From: Desulfobacterium sp.
GTDB lineage: Bacteria; Desulfobacterota; Desulfobacteria; Desulfobacterales; Desulfobacteraceae
Direction of reading: 5' to 3'
NCBI GenBank assembly: GCA_030145245.1
Contig: JAQYWC010000046.1
Span: 1-64,000, forward strand
DNA: 64,000 nt
Below the pieces are notes generated by a model, which saw only the letters and a program-made list of their open reading frames with translations, did not search any database and was not told where the DNA came from. Of the stretch, positions 4,117 to 63,884 are shown one piece after another. Each line of letters starts with the position of its first letter. Position 1 is the first letter of the stretch. The translations under genes and the position numbers were made by a program.

Positions 4117-4246
4117 AAAAGCCCAGGAAGAGCTGGATGTCCAGGATGTGTATATTACTAAGCTTAAAGTAAACTGGAGAGGCACAATATTGACCGTTGT
4201 CAACGAGAGTAACCAAAAGTACGAAATCAATCTAAAGGGAAATTGA
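4103..4246 (+). other. Coding-like frame between patatin and TPR methyltransferase
   Basis: A 47-codon frame, shifted by one from the lipase, ends with TGA exactly one base before the ATG of the next gene. Its translation looks like a genuine beta-strand-rich protein tail (VYITKLKVNWRGTILTVV). It has no ATG; GTG at about 4157 is a possible start. It could be a small coupled gene, or the original C-terminus of the lipase or of a lost gene separated by a frameshift. Confidence 0.3.
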
Positions 4247-5605
4247 ATGGCAAACCATGCAGAGACAGCACCTGGGCACAGGCCGTCCGGACAGGTAAAA
4301 CTTGCAGTCCACGAGGCCCTGGAAATCGGCCTGAAGCTTCACCAGAACGGCCACTTCACCCAGGCCGAGATGCTCTATATGCGTATCCTTGAGGCGGCAC
4401 CGGGAAATATCGATACCCTGCACTATCTGGGACTTCTGTGCCACCAGCATAACCGGGGCAAAGAAGCCGCCGAACTGATAAAGCGGATCATCACCCTTGC
4501 ACCGGAGAATGCCGATGCCCACAACAATCTTGGCAACGTGCTCGAAGGAATGGGAATGACCGGTGAGGCAGAAGAGTGCTACAGACAGGCCATCGCCCTT
4601 TTTCCCGACCATGGGCCAGCCATGAACAACCTTGGGGTGATGCTCATGGCCCGTAACAAGGTGGCAGAAGCGGTGACAACCTATCAAAATGCCATCCGGG
4701 TGGCCCCGGATTCAGCCGATTTTCACTATAATCTGGGCAATGCCCTGGTAAAATCAAAGGATGGTGATGGGGCGATCGCCGCCTACCAGCGCGCCATCGC
4801 CCTGAAGCCCGACTATGCCCTTGCCTGGCAGAGACTGGCCATGTATTTCCTATCTGCCGACCGGAAAAAAGAGGCTGAAGCGTTGTTTAAAAAATGGCTT
4901 ACGGTTGAACCCGGGAATCCCACGGTTCTTTATCTTCAGGCAGCCTGCCTGGGCAGTGACGCCCCGGACAGGGCACCCAACCAATATGTTCAGCAGGTGT
5001 TTGATGATATGGCAGACAACTTTGACACCCATTTGGTGGAAAAACTGGACTACCGTGCACCTGATTTACTCATAGAAGCGCTTGCCCAAGCCCTGCCCAA
5101 GCCAACCAACAACCTTGAGATATTGGATGCAGGCTGCGGCACGGGACTCTGCGGGCCGCTCCTTCGTCCCTATGCCGGACAGCTCACCGGCATCGACCTC
5201 TCCCCGCGCATGCTGGCCAAGGCAAAGGGCAGGACGGTGTATGACACGCTTACAACAGCAGAACTGACGGCGTTCCTTGATCAGCAATCCCAAGCTTTTG
5301 ATATCATTTTCTCGGCAGATACCCTGTGCTACTTTGGCGCCCTTGCCCCTGTGTTCACGGCAGCCTCAAAAGCCCTGAAACCGGACGGATTTTTCGCATT
5401 TACCCTGGAGACTGCCGACGGACATGCCGTGAACCTGAGACTCAACTCCCACGGCAGGTATTCCCACACCCGGGCCTATGCAAAGGAGACCCTCGCCGCT
5501 GCGGGACTTAAAACGGTTTCCATCGCATCAAAGGAGCTGCGCAAGGAAGAGGGGCGGCCGGTGTCGGGATTTGTTGTGGTGGCAAAGAAACAAAAGCGCT
5601 GTTGA
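4247..5605 (+). CDS. TPR-repeat SAM-dependent methyltransferase
   Basis: A 452-residue fusion. Residues 18-240 hold about six tetratricopeptide repeats, with the usual A-LG-AxxxY-AI-P spacing, for protein binding. Residues 250-450 form a class I methyltransferase; motif I (LDAGCGTGLCG, about residues 292-302) and the acidic strand-2 end (GIDLSPRML) bind S-adenosylmethionine. Homologous TPR-methyltransferases occur near secretion and sugar-modification loci, but the methyl acceptor is generally unknown. The start codon directly abuts the stop of the small upstream frame, and an AAAGG sits inside that frame, so translational coupling is likely. VgrG begins about 100 bases downstream. Confidence 0.8.
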   Translation: MANHAETAPGHRPSGQVKLAVHEALEIGLKLHQNGHFTQAEMLYMRILEAAPGNIDTLHYLGLLCHQHNRGKEAAELIKRIITLAPENADAHNNLGNVLEGMGMTGEAEECYRQAIALFPDHGPAMNNLGVMLMARNKVAEAVTTYQNAIRVAPDSADFHYNLGNALVKSKDGDGAIAAYQRAIALKPDYALAWQRLAMYFLSADRKKEAEALFKKWLTVEPGNPTVLYLQAACLGSDAPDRAPNQYVQQVFDDMADNFDTHLVEKLDYRAPDLLIEALAQALPKPTNNLEILDAGCGTGLCGPLLRPYAGQLTGIDLSPRMLAKAKGRTVYDTLTTAELTAFLDQQSQAFDIIFSADTLCYFGALAPVFTAASKALKPDGFFAFTLETADGHAVNLRLNSHGRYSHTRAYAKETLAAAGLKTVSIASKELRKEEGRPVSGFVVVAKKQKRC

Positions 5606-9989: not shown

Positions 9990-12472
9990 GGCGATTTCAC
10001 GTAATCACCCCCCATCTCTGTTCGGTTGCGACCGGCTCGTTTGGCCCGGTACAAGGCCTGATCCCCGGCCTTGTACATGGACGCCATGTCAGAAGGATTG
10101 TTTGAAACCACAAGACCAAAGGATGCGGTAACCGTATCTGCCACCCGGTTGTTGAGGTGCTCCATGGCCAACCCCTGGATGGCGGCCCGCAATCCGTCGA
10201 CAAAGACCATTGCCTGGTCAGGATCAAGGGTAGAGAACAGGATGCCGAACTCTTCGCCCCCGAGGCGGAAGGAATAATCCGTGGCCCTCCTGCACCGCTC
10301 AAGGAGGAGCTTTCCCACCCGGATAAGGACATCATCCCCCATCTGGTGACCATAGCAATCGTTGTACTGTTTGAAATAATCGATATCCATGACTGCAAAG
10401 GCAAGATATTCTCCAGTGCGACAGACCCTGCGAATTTCAAGGGGAAAAATCTCCTTTAACTTTCGCCGGTTAAAAAGGCCGGTCAGGGGATCCATGGCAG
10501 CAAGCAGTTTAACCTTGTCCTTTTCCTTGCGCAATTCGCCTTCAACCCGGTTTCTCACCTGAATCTCATTTCTGAGTCTCCGGTTCAGGCTGGACAGGCG
10601 CCTGATCCAGTAGAGGGATGCCAACAGGAGAACAACGGCCGCAAGCAGCACCTTCCAGAGCAGGGTATAGTCAAACCCATGCTCATATCGCAGGGTGATC
10701 CACCTCTGGTAGATGGTGTCCCGTTCCTTGTCTGAGATGGAGTCGATGGCCTTTTGAACCACTGAGGCAAAAACCGGCCAGTCATTGCGGACCGCCATGC
10801 TGACCTCAACTCCATGGGGCGTTGTACCGGAGACCTTGAGGGTGGTGATCCCCTCCTTTTTTATGGCATAATTGGCCGTGGCAAGGTTTCCCACATAGGC
10901 GCAGGCCTTTCCTTCAACCACAAGCCCAAGGGCCTTTGCCGTGGTATCTTCAGGATGAATATCAATGGCCGGATAATTCTCCCTGATAATTTCGTGTTCC
11001 GCATAATCCCTGACTACGGCAACCGGCCACCCACCCAACGCCTTCAGATCCTCGATAAAATCCACATTTTCATTGGTTATCACCACCAGGGGAAACGTCA
11101 GGTAAGGCTGGGTAAAGCTCATGCTCTTTTGTCGCTGGGCCGTTGCAGCAATGGCGGCAATCATGTCCAGCCGGCGATTTTCCATGGCGTTCAATGTGTC
11201 TGACCAGGACATCTCCCTTGAGTAGACAAAATTAATTCCAAGCCGGTCTTCAAGGATTCTAACATAGTCGGCCGTAATTCCTTCATACCTGCCTTCCGGA
11301 TCAAGGGATTCAAACGGCAGCCAGTTACGATCTATCCCGAGCCGGATCACGGGATGTCCGGCCACCCACTGCCGCTCCCGGTCGGTAAGCTTTAACATGC
11401 CTGCACTGGGATAAAAGGTGTCGATAAGATGGAGCAGATCAAACCCATAGAGCAGGAAGTCATTTTGATATTTGGATAAACTCCTGAAATCGATGCGCTC
11501 CCAGCTGTCGGCCAGGAAGCCGGCCACCTGATCCACGTTACTGCTGTCTATGGCATGCATCCCGGTGGTAAACACGGTATTTTCCTGTGAGAAATCCATG
11601 TCGTTCAGATAATCGTACATCAGGACCAGAGCCCAGGCACCTTCGAACATATGGCCGCCCACACTCACCCTGTTTTCACCGGATCGAATGCTCCCTACGG
11701 CATCGTCGCTCCAATCGATTCCGCCGGTCACGACCCTGTCCCGGCCAATGCCCATCTCATTTACGGCATCCATCACCCCAAGTGCAATATCATCCCCGGC
11801 CGCCCACACCGTATTGATATCGGGGTAGCGGCGAAAGGTTGACTCAAACACCTCCCTGGCATTTTTCCGGTTCCAGCTTTTTCCGGTTTCCACGATCCCA
11901 TACAGGGTCACATCGTCCCGGTTTGAAACAACCGTCTTCAACCCCTGTACACGGTCAATGGATGATTTTTCCAGCGGATTTCCCTGGATGGCAACCATGC
12001 GGATTTTATCCGCCCCGGTCGCTTTCCCAATATCGATCAACCGCTCGGCAAGCAAGCCCCCTGCCCTGACATCATCCGGCGTAATGCTTCCGATCCAGAA
12101 CGGGAACTGTTTCCGTGGAACCATCATGGGGTCTGCAAACCCTGTGTTATAGAGCAGGGCAGGCACCTTAAACCGGCCCGAGACCCTGAGAATCTCTTTG
12201 CCGAGATTTTCGTAATTCATGAAGATGATGCCGTCCGTGCCCTGGCTGCAGGCTGTTCTCACCTGTTCCAGCATGGTATCTCCCCGGTTGCCGGCATCAT
12301 GGACCGTAAGCTTCACCCCAAGATCACCGGCGGCCGACCGGGTCAGCCGGACAAGGGAAGCCCAGAAAGCAGTGTCATCCCGGGGAACGAACAGGGAAAC
12401 CTGGAAAGCCGAAACAGGAGCTGCCAGCAGCAGGAAAAAAATAAGTATAACAATCAGCCTGTTTTTCAGCAC
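9977..12472 (-). CDS. Membrane diguanylate cyclase with two periplasmic-binding sensor domains
   Basis: An 831-residue sensor-cyclase, starting at GTG behind a GGGGGA site. Residues 1-22 are a signal peptide. Residues 25-340 resemble a sugar/TorT-type type-1 binding protein (NTVWAAGDDIALGVMDA). Residues 360-600 resemble an SBP_bac_3 domain (VIRLGIDRNWLPFESLDPEGRYEG). A membrane helix lies near 615-635, followed by a coiled coil, and the GGDEF domain fills 655-820. The active-site loop reads GGEEF, and RATD lies five residues upstream as an intact inhibitory I-site, so active, product-inhibited c-di-GMP synthesis is expected. Two unlike ligand-binding domains in one receptor suggest integration of two small-molecule signals. 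Confidence 0.9.
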   Translation of the reverse strand: MLKNRLIVILIFFLLLAAPVSAFQVSLFVPRDDTAFWASLVRLTRSAAGDLGVKLTVHDAGNRGDTMLEQVRTACSQGTDGIIFMNYENLGKEILRVSGRFKVPALLYNTGFADPMMVPRKQFPFWIGSITPDDVRAGGLLAERLIDIGKATGADKIRMVAIQGNPLEKSSIDRVQGLKTVVSNRDDVTLYGIVETGKSWNRKNAREVFESTFRRYPDINTVWAAGDDIALGVMDAVNEMGIGRDRVVTGGIDWSDDAVGSIRSGENRVSVGGHMFEGAWALVLMYDYLNDMDFSQENTVFTTGMHAIDSSNVDQVAGFLADSWERIDFRSLSKYQNDFLLYGFDLLHLIDTFYPSAGMLKLTDRERQWVAGHPVIRLGIDRNWLPFESLDPEGRYEGITADYVRILEDRLGINFVYSREMSWSDTLNAMENRRLDMIAAIAATAQRQKSMSFTQPYLTFPLVVITNENVDFIEDLKALGGWPVAVVRDYAEHEIIRENYPAIDIHPEDTTAKALGLVVEGKACAYVGNLATANYAIKKEGITTLKVSGTTPHGVEVSMAVRNDWPVFASVVQKAIDSISDKERDTIYQRWITLRYEHGFDYTLLWKVLLAAVVLLLASLYWIRRLSSLNRRLRNEIQVRNRVEGELRKEKDKVKLLAAMDPLTGLFNRRKLKEIFPLEIRRVCRTGEYLAFAVMDIDYFKQYNDCYGHQMGDDVLIRVGKLLLERCRRATDYSFRLGGEEFGILFSTLDPDQAMVFVDGLRAAIQGLAMEHLNNRVADTVTASFGLVVSNNPSDMASMYKAGDQALYRAKRAGRNRTEMGGDYVKSPHSP

Positions 12473-54595: not shown

Positions 54596-54610
54596 TGGCA
54601 CAGATTATGA
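54596..54610 (+). promoter_or_regulatory. Weak sigma-54 promoter for the decarboxylase operon
   Basis: TGGCACAGATTATGA carries a perfect -24 half (TGGCAC); the -12 half reads ATGAA where TTGCA is expected, so GC is GA. The -12 side shares TTATG with the regulator-operon promoter at 63885-63900. It lies about 100 bases before the ATG. Confidence 0.5.
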
Positions 54611-54708
54611 AATTAGTACTTAGTCAAGAAGATTAACCGAAAAGGCTTCTGCGAAACCGGAGTAAATATCAACCCCGAGCCTTATTAAAACTGATGGAGG
54701 TATCTCAA

Positions 54709-57423
54709 ATGGCTAAAACATTGAAAGCTGTTCTTGCTGATGCGGGAATTCCAATGAATTTCCAGGCTGGCGGACAAGCGCCGGATCAATTAATCGATAG
54801 GGAAATTCAAAGAGAACCGCATCCCCGCGTACAAAAACTGAAACATATCTTCATGGGAACTCTTTCATCGGCAAGCAATGAATTCCCTTACTGGTACACC
54901 CGTGAATACATGCTGCACGACAATGACGTTCCCGTGCTAAGACGTGCAAAATCCTTGAAAACCGCATTTGCCCATTCCACGCCGGTCATTATCCCAGGCG
55001 AACTTCTGACCATGCGCAAAGCACCTTATTTTCGAGGTTCCTTTCCCATGCCCTGGCTGTCAGAAGGCTTCTACATGGCAAAGGAAGACGAATTCTACCA
55101 GGAAGCTTTAAAACGCGGCTCAGCATCTGTTGACGAACATTCTAAGTTCGGGCAGGGCGGAGGAAACGTGCCCAATAGCTTTGGTAAAGTCGTTTCCATT
55201 GCCGGCAAATTCGGTATGCGCCAGGAAGAAATTCCGGCTCTTCTCAAGCTTGCCAGGCTTTGGTATGGAAAATCGGTTGACGATCTCGGGAACAGATATG
55301 AAAAAATGGTTCCCGGCTATGGAACCAAGGAAAAGATCATGCGTAACATCGTATGCATGTTCGATTCCGGGTTTACGCTTCCCCAGGGACGGGAAGTCAT
55401 CAATTACTACTATCCCCTTGAATACGGTTTTGACGGCATTATCAAAATCGCAAGGGAAATGAAGGACAAAGTGGCTGGCAGGGCGGACGGTGACGGAATG
55501 GTAGGGATGAACCGCCTTTATAACTATGAAGCCGTCATTTACGTAGTTGAAGGCATTCAGAGCTGGATTCATAACTATGCAAAGGAAGCTAGAAGATTAG
55601 AGTCGCTTGAAGCTGACGCTCACCAGAAAACAGAGTTTAAGGAAATGGCTGAACGGCTTGAATGGATTGCCCATAACCCTCCAAGAACATTCATCGAAGC
55701 CTTTCAGATGATCGAAACCGTTCATATCGCAGTTCTCAATGAAGATGCCATCTCCGGTATGTCTCCCGGCAGAATCGGCCAGGTGCTCTACCCCTACTTT
55801 GAGCAGGATATGGAAGCAGGCCGCATCACGGAAGACGAAGTTATCGAACTGCTCGAGCTTGACCGGGTATTCAAGACATCCATCGACTGCTTTGCTTCCG
55901 TTGGTGTTGTGGGTGGCGTTCTCTCAGGAAACACCTTTAACACGGTTTCCATCGGCGGTTTGGACAAGGAGGGAAAATCCGCCGTCAACAGGCTCGAATA
56001 CCTGATTCTTGAGGCGGGCGCAAACAATGCCATGCCCCAGTCCACCCTCTCCTTACTCTATGATGAGAAACTACCCGAAGACTTTCTTTTACTTGCCATG
56101 GAAGTGATCAAGACAGGTGCCGGCTATCCTGCTTTTATGAGCAACCAGATTGCCCAGGAGTTCCTGAAAAACCACTACGGCCATGAAGGAATGAATGTTG
56201 AAGACGCTCGGGCCTGGGCCATCGGAGGCTGTCTTGAAACATCCGCATGTACATGGAAACCGCTTCACCTGAACGGCAAGGAATACTGGATCCCAGGCGG
56301 TGCGGGACAGCCCACGAGCGTCGGGGTACACTTTGTATCCATGCCCAAGATCCTCGAACTGACCCTGTTTAACGGTATTGACCAGAAAACCGGGGAAACG
56401 GTTTTTGCGCCCCATGACAAGTCCCTTGACACCTATGAGGAACTGTTTGAACAGTTCAAAACATACTGGAAAGAAGCGGTCGATATTCTAGCTCTTACCA
56501 ACAATATCCAACACGATATCTGGCGAAAGAATAACATGGCGGTTTTCAATTCACTCCTTAAACCGGACTGTCTTGACAAAGGCCATTTGATCAACGAGCT
56601 GGGCTACCGCTACAACGCCACATTTAACGTGGAAAGTGCCGGAACAATAACCCTGGTAAACGCCATGGCAGCCCTCAAGAAGTTGGTTTATGACGAGAAG
56701 GAAGTAAACCTTAAAGAGATGAAAAATGCTTTGAAGGATAATTTCGGTTTCAAGACCGCCCAGGAGATAAATTCCTTCTCACTGGCCGACCAGGAAAAAA
56801 GAGAGGATGGCGATAAAAAGTGGGACAAACTTCATTTTAAGACCCTCCAGGCACCCAAATACGGTAACGATGATCCGTATGCGGACAACATTCTTCTTGA
56901 CTGGGAAAATTTCTTCTGCCCGGATTGCAAAAATTATGAATCGTTATACGGCCACCCCATGTACCCATGCCAGATTTCCGTATCGACCCACGGTGCCATG
57001 GGATCGGCAACAATCGCCTCACCGGACGGCAGACTGGCGGGAACCACCTTTGCTGATGCGTCAATGTCCGCTTATCCGGGAACAGACAAAAACGGCCCCT
57101 TTGCCCTGCTCAATTCAGCGGCGATCTGGGATCACGCCATGTCCCAGAATTCCCAGCTGAACATCAAGATTCATCCCACGGCCATCAAGGGCGTCGAAGG
57201 GGCTAAAAAGTTGCTTGACCTCACCCGGGCTTACATGAGGAAAGGCGGATTTCATATTCAGTACAACGTCGTTGACTCCAAGGTATTGAAAGACGCCCAG
57301 AAACATCCTGAGAACTACCGGGATCTCATGGTCCGGGTTGCAGGCTTTACCCAGTACTGGGTCGAAATCGGCAAGAGCGTACAAGATGAACTAATCGCCA
57401 GAACAGAATATGAAGGAGTATAA
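54709..57423 (+). CDS. hpdB: Glycyl-radical arylacetate decarboxylase, 4-hydroxyphenylacetate decarboxylase type (large subunit)
   Basis: A 904-residue glycyl radical enzyme. ATG 54709 lies eight bases after GGAGG, five codons inside an earlier ATG. The thiyl Cys508 and the Cys-x-Glu base Glu510 ([11 protein letters not shown]), His541 (TSVGVH), Glu642 (FNVESAGTI) and radical Gly879 (RVAGFTQYW) match, in order and spacing, the clostridial 4-hydroxyphenylacetate decarboxylase residues C503, E505, H536, E637 and G873. The family removes CO2 from arylacetates; 4-hydroxyphenylacetate gives p-cresol. An extra CPDC pair (C737, C740) is seen. The HpdC-like subunit, transporter and activase follow. 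Family certain; substrate could be another arylacetate. Confidence 0.9.
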
Positions 57424-57428
57424 ATATA

Positions 57429-57692
57429 ATGGAAATGCTTACCTATAAGGACACCCGTAATTACGCCCCCATAGATGTCACAAAGGGAATGGACCTTCTC
57501 ACCAGGGAAATCGTCATGGCAGATACCCAGGCCCCTGAAGGGTACGAAATCATGCCCAAGTGCAAGTTTTGCAAAAACTTCAAGGAGACCGACACCTTCA
57601 TTGGGACCTGCGAAGCATCCATGAATGAACCCCGCTTTATTGCTTATCCTGACATGACAGCGGTTACCTGCGAAATGTACGAAACCATGTAA
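57429..57692 (+). CDS. hpdC: HpdC-like iron-sulfur small subunit with one cluster site
   Basis: An 87-residue protein six bases after the large subunit. It keeps the HpdC landmarks DVTKG (16-20) and MPKCKFCKNF, and the C-terminal [4Fe-4S] set Cys45, Cys48, Cys61 and Cys81. Clostridial HpdC, as I recall it, holds a second cluster on His3, Cys6, Cys19 and Cys36; the aligned residues here are Tyr6, Thr9, Asp22 and about Tyr39, and the protein has no other Cys. One cluster is therefore predicted, as in the small subunits of benzylsuccinate synthase. In HPAD the small subunit is needed for assembly and stability of the active complex. Identity strong; cluster count inferred. Confidence 0.85.
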   Translation: MEMLTYKDTRNYAPIDVTKGMDLLTREIVMADTQAPEGYEIMPKCKFCKNFKETDTFIGTCEASMNEPRFIAYPDMTAVTCEMYETM

Positions 57693-57758: not shown

Positions 57759-59081
57759 ATGAATGAAAACAAAGCAAAACAATTGGGCTGGTCGGTTGTT
57801 GCCGCTTCATGGTTGGCCGTATTCTGCCTGTTCGGCTACCGGGCCACCTTCGCGATTCTAAAAGGTCCAATGAGCGCGGATCTGGGCTGGTCCCAGGCAC
57901 AGGTCACACTGGGGTACTCCCTGATGATGGTCTTTTACGCGATCACTGCTTTTTTCAGCGGAATGATCCTTGATAAATGGGGCACAAAACCGGTTTATGC
58001 CATTGCGTCCGTTTTCGGTGCATTGGGCTTTTACACCACCAGTTTAATAAACAGCCACCTTGCCTACCTCTTTACATTCGGACTCATTGCCGGTATTGCC
58101 ACAGGCATGTTATGGGTGACCTCAACAGTGTCCATACGAAAATGGTATGTGGGCAAATCCTACGCAACCATGTGGGGAATTGCCTTTGCCGGCGCTCCCA
58201 TGGCCCAGTTTATTCTTTCCTATATCACAAAGGCGGCACTTCAGGGGGGTGCCCCCGATGCCTGGCGCGGAGCCATGCAGATTCTGGCAGTCATTATGCT
58301 GGTGGCCCTTATCGCCGCGGTTCTCCTGGCCAAAAAAAGCCCCGAAGCCTACAACCTGACACCCTTCGGTGAAATGCCCGGAACGGGCGGCGGACCGGCG
58401 AATACCGAATATGACTGGACCATGAAAGACGCTTTTTCCAACTATGCCATCTGGGCGGCGATTCTCACCTTTTTAACCAGTATGATGGGTGAATTCCTAA
58501 TCTGGACACAGGTTGTAAGCTATTGGGTTGCCGACCTGGGATGGACCCGTAACAAGGCTGTTGGCGTCTATGCGATCATCGGCCTGATTGGTATTTTCAG
58601 CATGCCGATCATGGGCGTTGTTGCCGACAAGGTGGTTCAAATTGTCGGAAAGGAAGCCAAGGGCCGTAAGATCATGCTGATTATCGGTCCTCTGACCGGC
58701 GTAATCGCCTGCATACTTCTCCTTATGGCCGGCCAGTCCATCTCCTGGGCGTATGGAGCCTGTTTTGTCTTTGCCGTTTACTGGGCCATTGTTCCCGGCG
58801 GCGTGGTCGGCTACACCGGCGCTGTCTATGGCCGCAAAACCCTGGGCAAGATCTGGGGCCTGGCGACCTTGATCGTCATGGGCATCGGTCCTTTCACCGG
58901 ATCATACATCGGCGGTTTGCTGAAAGACATCTCAGGCAGCTATACATATTCCATCTATTTTGCACTGGGATCCTTTGTCCTATCTATTCTGCTGGCAATA
59001 TCCCTGCCCTTGGCCGCAACGCCCCATGATGTCAAACTGGACGGGCACCATCATCATGGCAGGCGGGCTTTCAGCAGCTGA
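57759..59081 (+). CDS. MFS transporter, OFA (oxalate/formate antiporter-like) family
   Basis: A 440-residue twelve-helix carrier. It has the MFS loop after helix 2 (GMILDKWGTKPVYAI) and the OFA-like start (GWSVVAASWLAVFCLFGYRATFAILKGPM). The central loop lies at about 200-225 and the C-terminus ends in a polar HHHHGRR tail. OFA carriers exchange small carboxylates. Placed inside the decarboxylase operon, it most likely imports the arylacetate substrate or swaps it for a product or anion; exporting the aromatic product is the alternative. GGGAGGAG lies before the ATG. Confidence 0.9.
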   Translation: MNENKAKQLGWSVVAASWLAVFCLFGYRATFAILKGPMSADLGWSQAQVTLGYSLMMVFYAITAFFSGMILDKWGTKPVYAIASVFGALGFYTTSLINSHLAYLFTFGLIAGIATGMLWVTSTVSIRKWYVGKSYATMWGIAFAGAPMAQFILSYITKAALQGGAPDAWRGAMQILAVIMLVALIAAVLLAKKSPEAYNLTPFGEMPGTGGGPANTEYDWTMKDAFSNYAIWAAILTFLTSMMGEFLIWTQVVSYWVADLGWTRNKAVGVYAIIGLIGIFSMPIMGVVADKVVQIVGKEAKGRKIMLIIGPLTGVIACILLLMAGQSISWAYGACFVFAVYWAIVPGGVVGYTGAVYGRKTLGKIWGLATLIVMGIGPFTGSYIGGLLKDISGSYTYSIYFALGSFVLSILLAISLPLAATPHDVKLDGHHHHGRRAFSS

Positions 59082-59196: not shown

Positions 59197-60213
59197 ATGC
59201 ATAAATCACAAACGTCAAAGACCACAACAAAGCCCCCTGTAAAGGAGTTTATTGTGGAAACGCCCGGTGCCATGAAACAGGAGGCTCTCAGGGGATTTAT
59301 TTTCGACATACAGGGACATTCCGTGCATGACGGGCCCGGCACACGGACTACGGTTTTCATGAACGGCTGTCCCCTGAACTGTATCTGGTGCTGCAATCCG
59401 GAAGGCCTGTTTCGTCATCCGGTAATTATGCACAAAAAGAGCAAATGCGTCTGTTGCGGCAACTGCATTGAAAGCTGCCCCTATGACGCGGTTTCCATTA
59501 CCAAGGAAGGAAATTTATATTTCAACAGGGGCCTTTGTGACGTCTGTAAAACCCATGAATGCCTGGACACCTGTTACCATGACGGATTAGAACTGAACGG
59601 CAAATTCTACACACCGGATGAACTGATGCAGAAGTTGCAGAGAGACCGTCAGTTCTGGGGGGCCAAGGGCGGCGTTACATTCAGCGGCGGCGAACCTTTG
59701 ATGCAAAGCCGGTTCATACTTGAAATGCTTAAAAGATGTAAGAAAGCCTATCTGCATACCTGTGTGGAAACCACCTCCTGCCTGCCCACGGACTATTACA
59801 TGGACGCTATGCAATATGTGGACTGGGTGTTCACGGACCTGAAACATATGAACAATGGGGAGCACAAGGCGCTTACAGGCGCTGGCAACAGTCTCATATT
59901 GAAAAACATTGAAACCCTGGCCAAAAAACCAGATTGGGACGGATTTATTGTCCCCCGCATACCGGTTATTCCGAACCTGAATGATTCAGATGAAAATATC
60001 TGCGCCACCGCCGATTTTGTAAAGGCAATCGGGTTGGAAGTGATCAATATTCTTCCTTTCCACCGGCTTGGTGAATCTAAATACCGTCAACTCGGAAAGG
60101 TCTACCGTTTTGCGGAACAAAAACCGCCGTCAGCAGAAAAAATGTGCCATATCAAAAAATTAATCGAAGGGTACGGGCTTGTCTGTTTCATTGGGTATGA
60201 AACCCCCTTCTAA
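59197..60213 (+). CDS. hpdA: Glycyl-radical-enzyme activase (HpdA type)
   Basis: A 338-residue radical SAM protein. The SAM cluster motif CPLNCIWC gives Cys58, Cys62 and Cys65. Two ferredoxin-like clusters follow in an insert: Cys84/87/90/94 (CxxCxxCxxxC) and Cys114/117/122/126. The GGVTFSGGEP motif contacts SAM methionine, and LLPFHRLGESKYRQLG-type residues close the barrel (seen as ILPFHRLGESKYRQLG). It places the radical on Gly879 of the decarboxylase. AAGGAAAT precedes the ATG; a later ATG at 59275 would give 312 residues, closer to clostridial HpdA. Last gene of the operon. Confidence 0.9.
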   Translation: MHKSQTSKTTTKPPVKEFIVETPGAMKQEALRGFIFDIQGHSVHDGPGTRTTVFMNGCPLNCIWCCNPEGLFRHPVIMHKKSKCVCCGNCIESCPYDAVSITKEGNLYFNRGLCDVCKTHECLDTCYHDGLELNGKFYTPDELMQKLQRDRQFWGAKGGVTFSGGEPLMQSRFILEMLKRCKKAYLHTCVETTSCLPTDYYMDAMQYVDWVFTDLKHMNNGEHKALTGAGNSLILKNIETLAKKPDWDGFIVPRIPVIPNLNDSDENICATADFVKAIGLEVINILPFHRLGESKYRQLGKVYRFAEQKPPSAEKMCHIKKLIEGYGLVCFIGYETPF

Positions 60214-60289: not shown

Positions 60290-61867
60290 TTACTCTATTT
60301 TAAAGCTTTCCGATATTCCACCGAACTGTTTTCTTAATTTGGGTTTTTCAATTTTGCCTGTTGGATTGCGAGGCACATGGTTAAAGATAATTTTACGCGG
60401 CCTTTTGTACCTTGGAAGCTCCTCGCAAAATGCATTGATCTCATCCTTTGTCACTGCCTGGCCTTTCTTCACCTGAATTACGGCGGCCGTGATCTCCCCC
60501 AGCCGGGTACTGGGTACGCCAATGACTGCAACGTCCTGTATTTTCGGATGGGCCTGCAAAAAGTTTTCGATTTCCACCGGGTAGATATTCTCCCCTCCCG
60601 TAATGATAACGTCTTTCTTCCTATCCACCAGCCAGATAAACCCGTCTTCATCCTGGCGGGCCACATCCCCCGTGCGCAGCCAACCGTTAACGACCGCTTC
60701 GGCAGTTGCCTCAGCATTTCCATAGTATTCTTTCATGATACCCGGCCCCTTAACGATCAACTCCCCTGGAGAGCCTTGTTCAACGGACCTTAAGTCATCA
60801 TCAACGACCTTGCATTCCCAGTCAAACCCAGGCCGCCCAATGGCGCCGACCTTGTGTTCATTCTCAATCCCCAGATGAACGCATCCCGGACCGGTACACT
60901 CTGTAAGCCCATAATTTGTGTCATACTTGTGATGGGGAAATACTTTTTTCCATTCTTTAATAAGACTCAAGGGAACCGGTTGGGCGCCGATATGCATCAA
61001 CCGCCACTGATCAAGCTCATAGTCCCGCAACTTTATGTCGCCACATTCAATGGCAAAGAGTATATCCAGCGCCCATGGCACCAGAAGCCAGACCAGGGTC
61101 ACTTTCTCCTCAGACACGGCCTCAACAATCCATTTGGGTTCGATCCCTTTCAGAATGACGGATCTGGCCCCCACAATAAAATTTCCAAACCAGTGCATTT
61201 TGGCGCCGGTATGGTATAACGGCGGAATACAAAGAAAATTATCTTCATGGGTCTGGTGATGGTGACTGTTTTCCAGGAAACAGGCAAACTCCAGATTCCT
61301 GTGGGTCAGCAATGTCGCCTTGGGTCTGCCGGTGGTTCCGGATGTAAAGTAAAGACCGGCATCGTCCAATATATTCATATTCACCTGTGGTTCATCCGCA
61401 CTTTGAGAGTCAATAAACGCTTTATACGGGATTGCGTAACCAGGCGTCTGTTCTTCCGGCCCCACAAAGATGTAATCTTTTACGGTTTCATCAATATCGC
61501 TTTTTATTTTATCAACACGGTCAACAAATTCCTCACCAAAGATAAACGCTTTTGCCCCGGCAACGGATGTGCAGTATTTGAGACTCTCTGCCCGAAACCG
61601 GAAATTAAGCGGCACCGCCAGCGCGCCGGTACGAAGGATACCAAAATAGATGGGCAGCCATTCAATGCAGTTGACCATCAAATGAACCACTTTATCCCCT
61701 TTTTGAATTCCGGCGGCGAGAAGGGCCTGGGCGACCTGATTCGACTGTGCATTAAATTCCTCCCAGGTAATTTCCCGTCTCAGGTTTTGAGTTGGCACAC
61801 GCTCTATCAGGGCTGTTTCATTTCCATACATCCGGGCATTTCGAACAAGTATATCTGTAATCAGCAT
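60290..61867 (-). CDS. AMP-forming acyl/aryl-CoA ligase
   Basis: A 525-residue ANL-superfamily ligase. Motif A3 YFTSGTTGRPKATLLTHRN binds ATP phosphates; A5-type NYGLTECTGPG, A7 GWLRTGDVARQDEDG, A8 VDRKKDVIITGGENIYPVEIE and the A10 lysine near the end (PTGKIEK) are intact. It joins a carboxylic acid to CoA with ATP to AMP plus PPi. It is not the shorter PaaK subfamily, so the substrate may be a medium-chain, aryl or hydroxyaryl acid. GGAGAGG precedes the ATG. It shares its operon with an ACT protein and the sigma-54 activator, pointing to aromatic-acid activation. Confidence 0.88.
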   Translation of the reverse strand: MLITDILVRNARMYGNETALIERVPTQNLRREITWEEFNAQSNQVAQALLAAGIQKGDKVVHLMVNCIEWLPIYFGILRTGALAVPLNFRFRAESLKYCTSVAGAKAFIFGEEFVDRVDKIKSDIDETVKDYIFVGPEEQTPGYAIPYKAFIDSQSADEPQVNMNILDDAGLYFTSGTTGRPKATLLTHRNLEFACFLENSHHHQTHEDNFLCIPPLYHTGAKMHWFGNFIVGARSVILKGIEPKWIVEAVSEEKVTLVWLLVPWALDILFAIECGDIKLRDYELDQWRLMHIGAQPVPLSLIKEWKKVFPHHKYDTNYGLTECTGPGCVHLGIENEHKVGAIGRPGFDWECKVVDDDLRSVEQGSPGELIVKGPGIMKEYYGNAEATAEAVVNGWLRTGDVARQDEDGFIWLVDRKKDVIITGGENIYPVEIENFLQAHPKIQDVAVIGVPSTRLGEITAAVIQVKKGQAVTKDEINAFCEELPRYKRPRKIIFNHVPRNPTGKIEKPKLRKQFGGISESFKIE

Positions 61868-61977: not shown

Positions 61978-62364
61978 TCATTCAAGCACCTGGGAGGCCT
62001 TATCCGGGTCATCGACCATAAACACCATCCCCATGCTGTTTTTTTCCACATTGGCAAAGGCATACATGTATTCCACGTTTATCCCGGCACGGTTAAAGGA
62101 CGCCAGAACATCATGGATCTGCCGGGTATCATTTTCCAGTTCAACCGCAAAGACCGATGTGGAATTTACGACGAACCCTTGATGTTTAAGGTGGTCTTTC
62201 GCCTTTTTCGTATCATCCACAATCATCCGGAGCACTCCGAAATCCGAAAGATCGGCCAGAATCATGGCCTTTACAACAATGCCCGCCTCCGAAAGTGCGG
62301 AAGTAACTTCAGCAAGTCGTCCCGATTTGTTTTCCATGAAGATCGAAATTTGTTCAATTTGCAT
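61978..62364 (-). CDS. Tandem ACT-domain protein
   Basis: A 128-residue protein; the ATG at 62364, seven bases after AAGGAG, is preferred to an upstream start. Two ACT modules: 1-65 (QIEQISIFMENKSGRLAEVTSALSEAGI type start) and 68-128 (FAVELENDTRQIHDVLASFNRAGINVEY). ACT domains bind amino acids or related acids and regulate nearby enzymes. Small ACT proteins often sit next to arylacetate-CoA ligase genes in anaerobes. Here it lies between the sigma-54 activator and a CoA ligase, so it may sense an aromatic amino acid or the arylacetate. Confidence 0.85.
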   Translation of the reverse strand: MQIEQISIFMENKSGRLAEVTSALSEAGIVVKAMILADLSDFGVLRMIVDDTKKAKDHLKHQGFVVNSTSVFAVELENDTRQIHDVLASFNRAGINVEYMYAFANVEKNSMGMVFMVDDPDKASQVLE

Positions 62365-62419
62365 AGCGCTTCTCCTTTTTCTATTTAATGACACAAAGCC
62401 GGGGCATAAACCGTCCCCA

Positions 62420-63814
62420 TTACGGATCCATCATCCCGTACAAATGCATTTTTTTATAAAGCAGGGCCCTTGATATTCCAAGTATTTTGGCTGTTTCCGA
62501 TCTGTTGTTGTTTGCAGATACAAGGGCCTGGCTAACCGCTTTTTTCTCGGTCAAGGCAACCAGAGAACGCAAATCATGTTTAATACCGAAATGGGATTGA
62601 ATGACAGCGCTTTGCCCGGAGATTATGGTCCGGACATGCTCCTCCGTTATGGATTCCTGGGGAACAAGGATGATGAGCCGTTCCAGGACATTTCGCAATT
62701 CACGGATATTGCCCGGCCAATCATAATTTTTCAGGACATTTAACGCTTCGAAATCCAGCTTTTTGTGATAAATACCGTATTCCTTCTTTAACTGCTTCCA
62801 GATAAAAAGAGTTAATTCCGGAATATCCGAGCGACGGTCACGAAGGGAAGGAATACAAATGGGAATCACATTCAGTCGATAGTACAGATCTTTTCTGAAC
62901 TTTCCTTGCTTTACAAGCTGCTCCAGGTTTTTATTGGTGGCGGCGATGATGCGCACATCAACGTTAAATATTTTTTCTCCCCCGACCTTGTCAACCGTTC
63001 GTTCCTGGATGACCCGCAGCATTTTAGCCTGGAGGGCCAAGGGCATATCACCAATCTCATCAAGAAAAATGGTTCCAGTATCAGCCAGTTCGAACTTACC
63101 TTTCTTCCCTCCTTTTTTAGCACCGGTAAATGCACCGCCCACATACCCGAACAACTCTGACTCAAAAAGGCTTTCCTGAATGGCCGAACAATTAAGCATC
63201 ACAAAAGGACCGTTACACCGTGAACTCATATTATGTATGCTTTGGGCAAATACCTCCTTGCCCACGCCACTTTCTCCTAACAACAGCACAGTTGCCTGGG
63301 AGGCAGACGCCCTGATGGCCCTTTTTTTTATTTGATGGCTTAACTCAGAAAAGGCAACCATTTTTTTAAATGTATACCGGGCATCGTGATGGTTCCCATC
63401 TGTTTTTTTTATTTTTGCTTCAAGTTTCAGGATCTTTTGTGTCAGGTGTTTCACTGTATCCGTATGCTGAAATCTAATTTTTCCGACAACACCGACACAT
63501 TGGCCCCGAATCACCAACGGCAGCCTGGAAACAATATATTCATGCTTACCGATGGTCTGGATTTCGTCTGTTTCAGCTACACCGGTCTGGGCAACAATAT
63601 GCATCCTGGTGTTTTCCATGATATCGGTTACCTGTCTGCCCACAGCTTTCTCTTTCGGAATCCCATGAATCTCCTCAAAACTTTTATTTACATAGACAAT
63701 TTCCCCCTTCAGGTTGATGACCATCAAGCCTTCCGCAGAAATCGCCAGGATTTCCTCAATTATTTCCGTAGCACTAAAAACATCTGTTAACTCAAAAAGT
63801 TTTAAATCATTCAT
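62420..63814 (-). CDS. PAS-containing sigma-54 activator of the decarboxylase locus
   Basis: A 464-residue bacterial enhancer-binding protein; ATG 63814 lies five bases after GGAG. A PAS sensor covers about 20-125 ([24 protein letters not shown]). A short coiled coil follows, then AAA+ at 165-395: Walker A GESGVGKE, sigma-54 loop GAFTGA (intact), Walker [12 protein letters not shown] Fis-type helix-turn-helix ends the protein ([21 protein letters not shown]). No receiver, so it likely responds directly to a small molecule through PAS. The sigma-54 sites at 54596 and 63885 are its probable targets, giving self-regulation and control of the decarboxylase operon. Confidence 0.92.
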
Positions 63815-63884
63815 AGCGTCTCCATGCACCCGATTTTTATGATCTGGAGCATCGTTCCGGACATCCATTCAACTCTTTCTTTTG

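Follow-up and report, generated by a model that had tools for sequence, protein, structure and literature searches.

The window, that is, the whole analysed stretch of 64,000 nucleotides on contig JAQYWC010000046.1 of Desulfobacterium sp., carries a gene cassette for a 4-hydroxyphenylacetate decarboxylase (HPAD) in the order hpdB, hpdC, MFS transporter and hpdA (Table 1). The hpdC-like gene lies immediately 3' of the gene for the HPAD large subunit, its ATG five bases beyond the hpdB stop, and the activase gene is close by. The HpdA-like activase matches TIGR02494 with 306 bits, above the cut-off of 174, and the best NCBIfam match given in Table 1, NF033717, is the HPAD activase model. The MFS gene is equally placed in a Candidatus Aminicenantes locus (L004; 70% identical) and in an Acidobacteria locus (L008; 78%).

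Table 1. Genes and sequence features of the HPAD cassette and its surroundings in the window.
Feature	Position	Strand	Details
Sigma-54-like promoter box	54596..54611	+	TGGCACAGATTATGAA; upstream of hpdB; -24 half good, -12 half weak
hpdB, HPAD glycyl radical large subunit	54709..57423	+	904 aa; NF033715 1596 bits, cut-off 1150
hpdB active site		+	Cys508 56230-56232; Glu510 56236-56238; His541 56329-56331; Glu642 56632-56634; radical Gly879 57343-57345
hpdC-like small subunit	57429..57692	+	87 aa; NF033716 79.1 bits, cut-off 50
N-terminal domain, site I lost	57444..57542	+	Tyr6 57444-57446; Thr9 57453-57455; Asp22 57492-57494; Cys36 equivalent deleted or Pro36 57534-57536
Retained C-terminal HiPIP-like site	57561..57671	+	Cys45 57561-57563; Cys48 57570-57572; Cys61 57609-57611; Cys81 57669-57671; PF18524
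MFS transporter, hpdC-hpdA interval	57759..59081	+	PF07690
Radical SAM activating enzyme, HpdA-like	59197..60213	+	Best NCBIfam NF033717 375 bits, below cut-off 420
AMP-binding enzyme, probably acyl-CoA ligase	60290-61867	-
ACT-domain protein	61978-62394	-
Sigma-54-dependent regulator	62420..63868	-	PF00158; Best NCBIfam NF041552 (PrdR) 442 bits, below cut-off 795

The HpdB protein aligns with the large subunit of the Clostridium scatologenes (Cs) enzyme (2y8n_A, E 2.3e-302), and the five active-site residues of Table 1 correspond, in the same order, to Cs Cys503, Glu505, His536, Glu637 and Gly873; together with Phe214 and Ser344, seven Cs HPAD residues are identical in the window. His536 is presumably linked to the para-hydroxyl of the substrate. 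In HPAD, Glu637 is credited with deprotonating the phenol and Glu505 with protonating the thiolate (PMC9248008, available text). Judging from the conserved residues, the activase would generate a glycyl radical that is passed on to the active-site Cys, and 4-hydroxyphenylacetate would be decarboxylated to p-cresol. The Acidobacteria relatives raised phenylacetate decarboxylase (toluene) activity as another candidate, which appears improbable when judged on residues and model score, given that Cs His536 and Glu637 are kept and the NF033715 score is far above the cut-off.

The same genome holds a second complete HPAD operon (L003; G000:C77, 3652-9524), whose regulator, hpdB, hpdC and activase are 73, 87, 82 and 75% identical to those of the window; no match to the MFS protein was found in the 17 kb read around it. 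The regulator in question is divergent from that operon, and its counterpart in the window presumably controls hpdBCA. Sigma-54-like boxes with TGGCAC/T occur 41-127 nt 5' of hpdB in the window, L003, L021, L023, L024, L016, L046 and L019. The match is full in L019 (TGGCACGCGGCTTGCA), and the -12 half is weak in the window, L003, L021 and L024; a box with both core pairs and no fewer than 9 matches turned up in 19 of 500 random 350-nt stretches taken from the window as a control.

The small subunit exceeds the cut-off of the curated HpdC equivalog model NF033716, and the Pfam families 4HPAD_g_N (35.9 bits) and HPIP_like (39.2 bits) both match above cut-off, the HiPIP-like PF18524 fitting the C-terminal domain (39.2 bits, cut-off 28.1). 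Its only cysteines are residues 45, 48, 61 and 81 and it contains no His, as the initial annotation had stated. The stop-to-stop frame (57414-57692, 92 codons) adds only RSINI upstream of the Met, with neither Cys nor His, so that a longer start would bring no ligand. We take His3, Cys6, Cys19 and Cys36 to be the ligands of the N-terminal cluster (site I) in C. scatologenes HpdC, an assignment that reportedly stems from the 2011 structure paper on that enzyme; the joint retention of these four positions in 19 of 30 small-subunit rows agrees with it. In a phmmer comparison with 2y8n_B, the C. scatologenes HpdC (E 7.3e-6; window residues 6-85 homologous), His3, Cys6, Cys14 and Cys19 pair with Tyr6, Thr9, Val17 and Asp22, and Cys36 falls into a three-residue gap in the pairwise alignment or stands opposite Pro36 in the multiple alignment. 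The N-terminal His-Cys-Cys-Cys site is therefore absent, its place being taken by Tyr, Thr, Asp and a gap or Pro, and the loss of site I first noticed on reading the sequence is borne out. The constant offset of three residues assumed in that reading holds for the first three ligands, but is zero after the deletion (Cs Cys45 is window Cys45), which makes the fourth position either a deletion or Pro36 and not, as had been suggested, approximately a Tyr. AlphaFold2 runs with five input sequences gave a mean pLDDT of 51.8 for the window protein and 37.7 for L004 as intact control, both models being poor. With site I absent and site II, the C-terminal four-Cys site, kept, we infer a one-cluster HPAD, and from the sequence this step, which the initial annotation had also taken, is straightforward.

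How widespread this state is can be seen from the HPAD loci of other genomes. Large subunits above cut-off were found in 5 of 389 genomes of the window's class, in 5 of 347 of the phylum of the Acidobacteria MAG (1 of 4 in its family), in 2 of 139 from the Aminicenantes MAG's class, and in 10 of 140 from the family and 12 of 216 from the class to which the Olsenella genome belongs, some genomes falling into more than one of these searches. Searches with the N-terminal Pfam family gave matches in 4 of 193 relatives and in 2 of 345 genomes of the phylum, and a contig scan with the large subunit as query gave five loci. The 30 small-subunit rows compared consist of 29 genomic sequences, among them Collinsella vaginalis (L006), and 2y8n_B, through which alone the Clostridia are sampled. 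Left out were L007 and L048 (whose contigs stop short of hpdC), L012 (PF18671 below cut-off) and the duplicates L001, L002, L009, L010, L011, L013, L014, L015, L022 and L026; L004, L005 and L008 are counted once, as L046, L034 and L016. Near-copies persist among the rows (L027-L029; L032-L035; L046-L047), and row counts are therefore not event counts. PF18671 gave no match in the Acidobacteria genome G528, although its L008 hpdC (10004-10270) scores 74 bits with NF033716, which indicates that the N-terminal Pfam model can miss a degraded HpdC.

The four C-terminal Cys of site II are present in all 30 rows. Site I is complete in 19, as His-Cys-Cys-Cys in 18 (the His of L018 was taken from its frame, THMDC, outside the trimmed alignment) and as Cys-Cys-Cys-Cys in one; in the latter (L042; G1325, hpdC 4200-4481) Cys replaces the His, so that the N-terminal site consists of Cys throughout. 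Seven rows retain none of the four ligands (window, L003, L021, L023, L024, L016 and L030), and four rows from the Olsenella family keep Cys6 only (L027, L028, L029 and L031). The N-terminal domain is devoid of Cys and His in the window, L003, L021, L023, L024 and L016; that of L030 has one His and one Cys, and those of L027-L029 and L031 have two Cys and three His each. We therefore prefer "degraded" to "cluster-free" outside the window's group, since the Cys and His left in L027-L031 could conceivably belong to a re-arranged metal site. Asp13, Lys/Arg16 and Gly17 are retained in 30 of 30 rows; with these residues kept and five related loci (L003, L021, L023, L024 and L016) in the same state, the loss of site I looks like more than chance. 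HPADs of the window's class are not always one-cluster enzymes, as L025 from genome G011 is intact. Two divergent HPAD-like enzymes with intact small subunits, L043 and L044, score about 1240 bits and have Ala where Cs has Phe214; their substrate may differ.

The cassette hpdB-hpdC-MFS-hpdA is shared by the intact Aminicenantes locus L004 (= L046) and the degraded Acidobacteria locus L008 (= L016), both with a large subunit 78% identical to that of the window. The small subunit of L004 (51% identical) keeps the site-I His and three Cys, unlike that of the window, whereas L008 has Tyr, Ser, Asp and Pro at these positions. Unlike the window protein, however, L008/L016 groups with the intact L046/L047, and its loss is perhaps independent.

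Another question regards how often site I was lost. A maximum-likelihood tree was computed from 34 large subunits, of which 30 belong to HPADs and four to indoleacetate decarboxylases (IAD). The degraded label cannot be placed on it with fewer than four changes, and four are already required by well-supported branches. This tree carries a long branch (L025) as well as long branches meeting at the outgroup; a second tree without L025 and the four IAD rows left the number of changes the same. On the second tree, a single clade of all degraded rows was rejected (p-AU 1.5e-6), as was a single clade of the six rows of the window's group (p-AU 0.0016), values that serve as a guide because the groups were defined after the label was known. 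The degraded rows occupy three separate parts of the HPAD tree, and L046/L047, with site I intact, are nested in the window's degraded part, meaning that the site was either lost more than once there or regained. When the four ligand columns are excluded, a tree of the small subunits, in which only 6 of 26 inner branches are well supported, has broadly the same topology as the large-subunit tree and groups L016 with L046/L047 (support 85/91, not starred), which speaks against a whole-gene swap. The two halves of the L046/L047 hpdC have different nearest relatives: the N-terminal half is 57 and 60% identical to the intact L019 versus 44 and 47% to the sister L016, and the C-terminal half 61 and 59% to L016 versus 47% to L019, a pattern that leaves room for partial replacement. 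By parsimony the intact site I is the ancestral state, the IAD outgroup not being known to have the subunit, and the degraded state is apparently a repeated, secondary loss inside HpdC.

This placement bears on the further suggestion of the initial annotation that the protein is intermediate in form between HpdC and BssB/BssC, which we took to mean an evolutionary link from the two-cluster to the one-cluster type. The small subunits of BSS and MASS likewise carry a single [4Fe-4S] cluster in a HiPIP-like fold on a glycyl radical enzyme (PMC12358834, available text), and one HiPIP-like domain is what is left of the cluster sites here. The degraded proteins, however, sit inside intact HPAD lineages at three places, and the window protein, unlike BssB/BssC and the MAS small subunits, has the HpdC-type N-terminal domain. 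The HpdC models match it and no Bss small-subunit family does at E <= 0.001; PF08201 (BssC/TutF) gave no match at this threshold to the window protein or anywhere in its genome, and matched in one of the eight genomes searched (G1030). We give the intermediate hardly any credence.

Alternatively, the operon might be degenerating, with a small subunit that no longer matters. All four ligands are lost, and the related IAD has been reported to work without a small subunit (PMC6181972, available text). Against such decay, the reading frames are intact in both HPAD operons of the genome, the second operon's HpdC likewise lacking site I, and the seven active-site residues of the large subunit are kept. 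Moreover, the same state recurs in L021, L023 and L024 from the window's class and in L016 from the Acidobacteria. Between the window and L003, dN is 0.08 and dS 1.03 for the N-terminal domain, and 0.15 and 1.42 for the C-terminal half. Across the six rows of the window's group dN is lower than dS in 30 of 30 comparisons, covering both gene halves, with dS above 1 or saturated in 27 of the other 28. The low dN of the N-terminal domain indicates that it is maintained without its cluster. The same loss in a second operon and the purifying selection on the N-terminal domain argue against both a sequencing slip and a dying gene, and degeneration is in our view very improbable.

Asp at position 19 is common to all 11 degraded rows; of the three tree parts with degraded rows, two show Tyr at position 3 and two show Pro at 36. 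The Asp19 codons (GAC/GAT) are two base changes away from those of Cys (TGC/TGT), and by this reckoning the recurrence of Asp in each of the three parts suggests that the residue has a role. We considered a Lys/Arg4-Asp19 salt bridge in place of the cluster. Lys/Arg4 is present in 10 of the 11 degraded rows, but as a general rule the proposal fails, as Lys/Arg4 is also found in the intact L046, L047, L019 and L042 and the degraded L030 has Tyr.

The recurring Asp, in a domain that remains constrained, could also mean that a cluster, or a single metal, is still bound at site I, with Asp22, Asp8, Tyr6 or residues of the large subunit as ligands. Other degraded lineages do retain Cys and His, and in eight columns of the HpdB alignment Cys is confined to one or more degraded rows (e.g. 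Cs 527 in L023, L024 and L016). In the window HpdC, however, no Cys or His precedes residue 45, and to our knowledge a [4Fe-4S] cluster to which its own domain contributes neither Cys nor His would be very unusual, which counts against this explanation. The large subunit offers no obvious substitute either. Each of the eight Cys columns of the window HpdB is also Cys in 7 to 19 of the 19 intact rows, and thus none looks like a new donor or is special to degraded rows. As to particular candidates, the window lacks Cys in all eight degraded-only columns, and a CPDC motif at Cs 731-734 is also present in the intact L019 and L042. By the criterion applied, no large-subunit column set each of the three degraded groups apart from its intact relatives. 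Cs position 706 is Cys in 19 of 19 intact HPADs and in 7 of 11 degraded ones, and is not Cys in the window, L003, L021 and L023. Overall, we regard binding through such ligands as unlikely.

The explanation we favour, and hold to be very probable as a whole, is that of an HPAD whose small subunit carries one [4Fe-4S] cluster rather than two. The C-terminal HiPIP-like cluster, whose Cys ligands are all present, would be kept, and the N-terminal domain would persist as a structural element without a cluster, probably serving in docking to the large subunit, with the Asp at the former Cys19 probably stabilising the vacated site. Compared with C. scatologenes HpdC (PDB 2y8n, 2yaj), the window protein has the same HpdB partner family and the same four C-terminal Cys but none of the four N-terminal cluster ligands.

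The HPAD small subunit has been described with two [4Fe-4S] clusters (PMC12358834, PMC11194802, PMC10239695), its function being called unknown or unclear (PMC12358834, PMC11194802); the subunit is regarded as important for expression in soluble form, and its proposed participation in reducing the glycyl radical is given as unconfirmed (PMC12358834), all according to the available text of these papers. A one-cluster HPAD was not reported in the literature searched, as far as its text was available; an earlier mention in the HPAD papers of 2004, 2006, 2011, 2014 and 2016 is possible. Plasmid and viral collections yielded no HpdC relatives. The host is probably a sulfate reducer, as dsrA exceeds the model cut-off in its genome. 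The same holds for the other four HPAD genomes of the class (G060, G170, G1030 and G011), and no dsrA match was found in the two Acidobacteria-phylum genomes searched (5 of 7 positive overall); in a control, 8 of 14 genomes gave weaker matches, below cut-off.

The degradation of site I in three separate parts of the tree suggests that HPADs in general can probably function without the N-terminal cluster. We lean, with some reserve because Cys and His partly persist in this domain in the Coriobacteriia forms, towards seeing the cluster as a dispensable accessory whose loss was repeated and convergent, Asp replacing Cys19 on every occasion, and thus against a universal two-cluster relay. If this is true, the electron transfer proposed between the small subunit and the glycyl radical, in either direction, cannot need a two-cluster relay in all HPADs. 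Natural one-cluster HPADs and their intact relatives with the same cassette would provide a ready-made comparison in which the part played by the N-terminal cluster (in solubility, activation or radical persistence) can be told apart from the contributions of the C-terminal cluster and the protein scaffold, and the recurring Asp would be a defined residue for testing.
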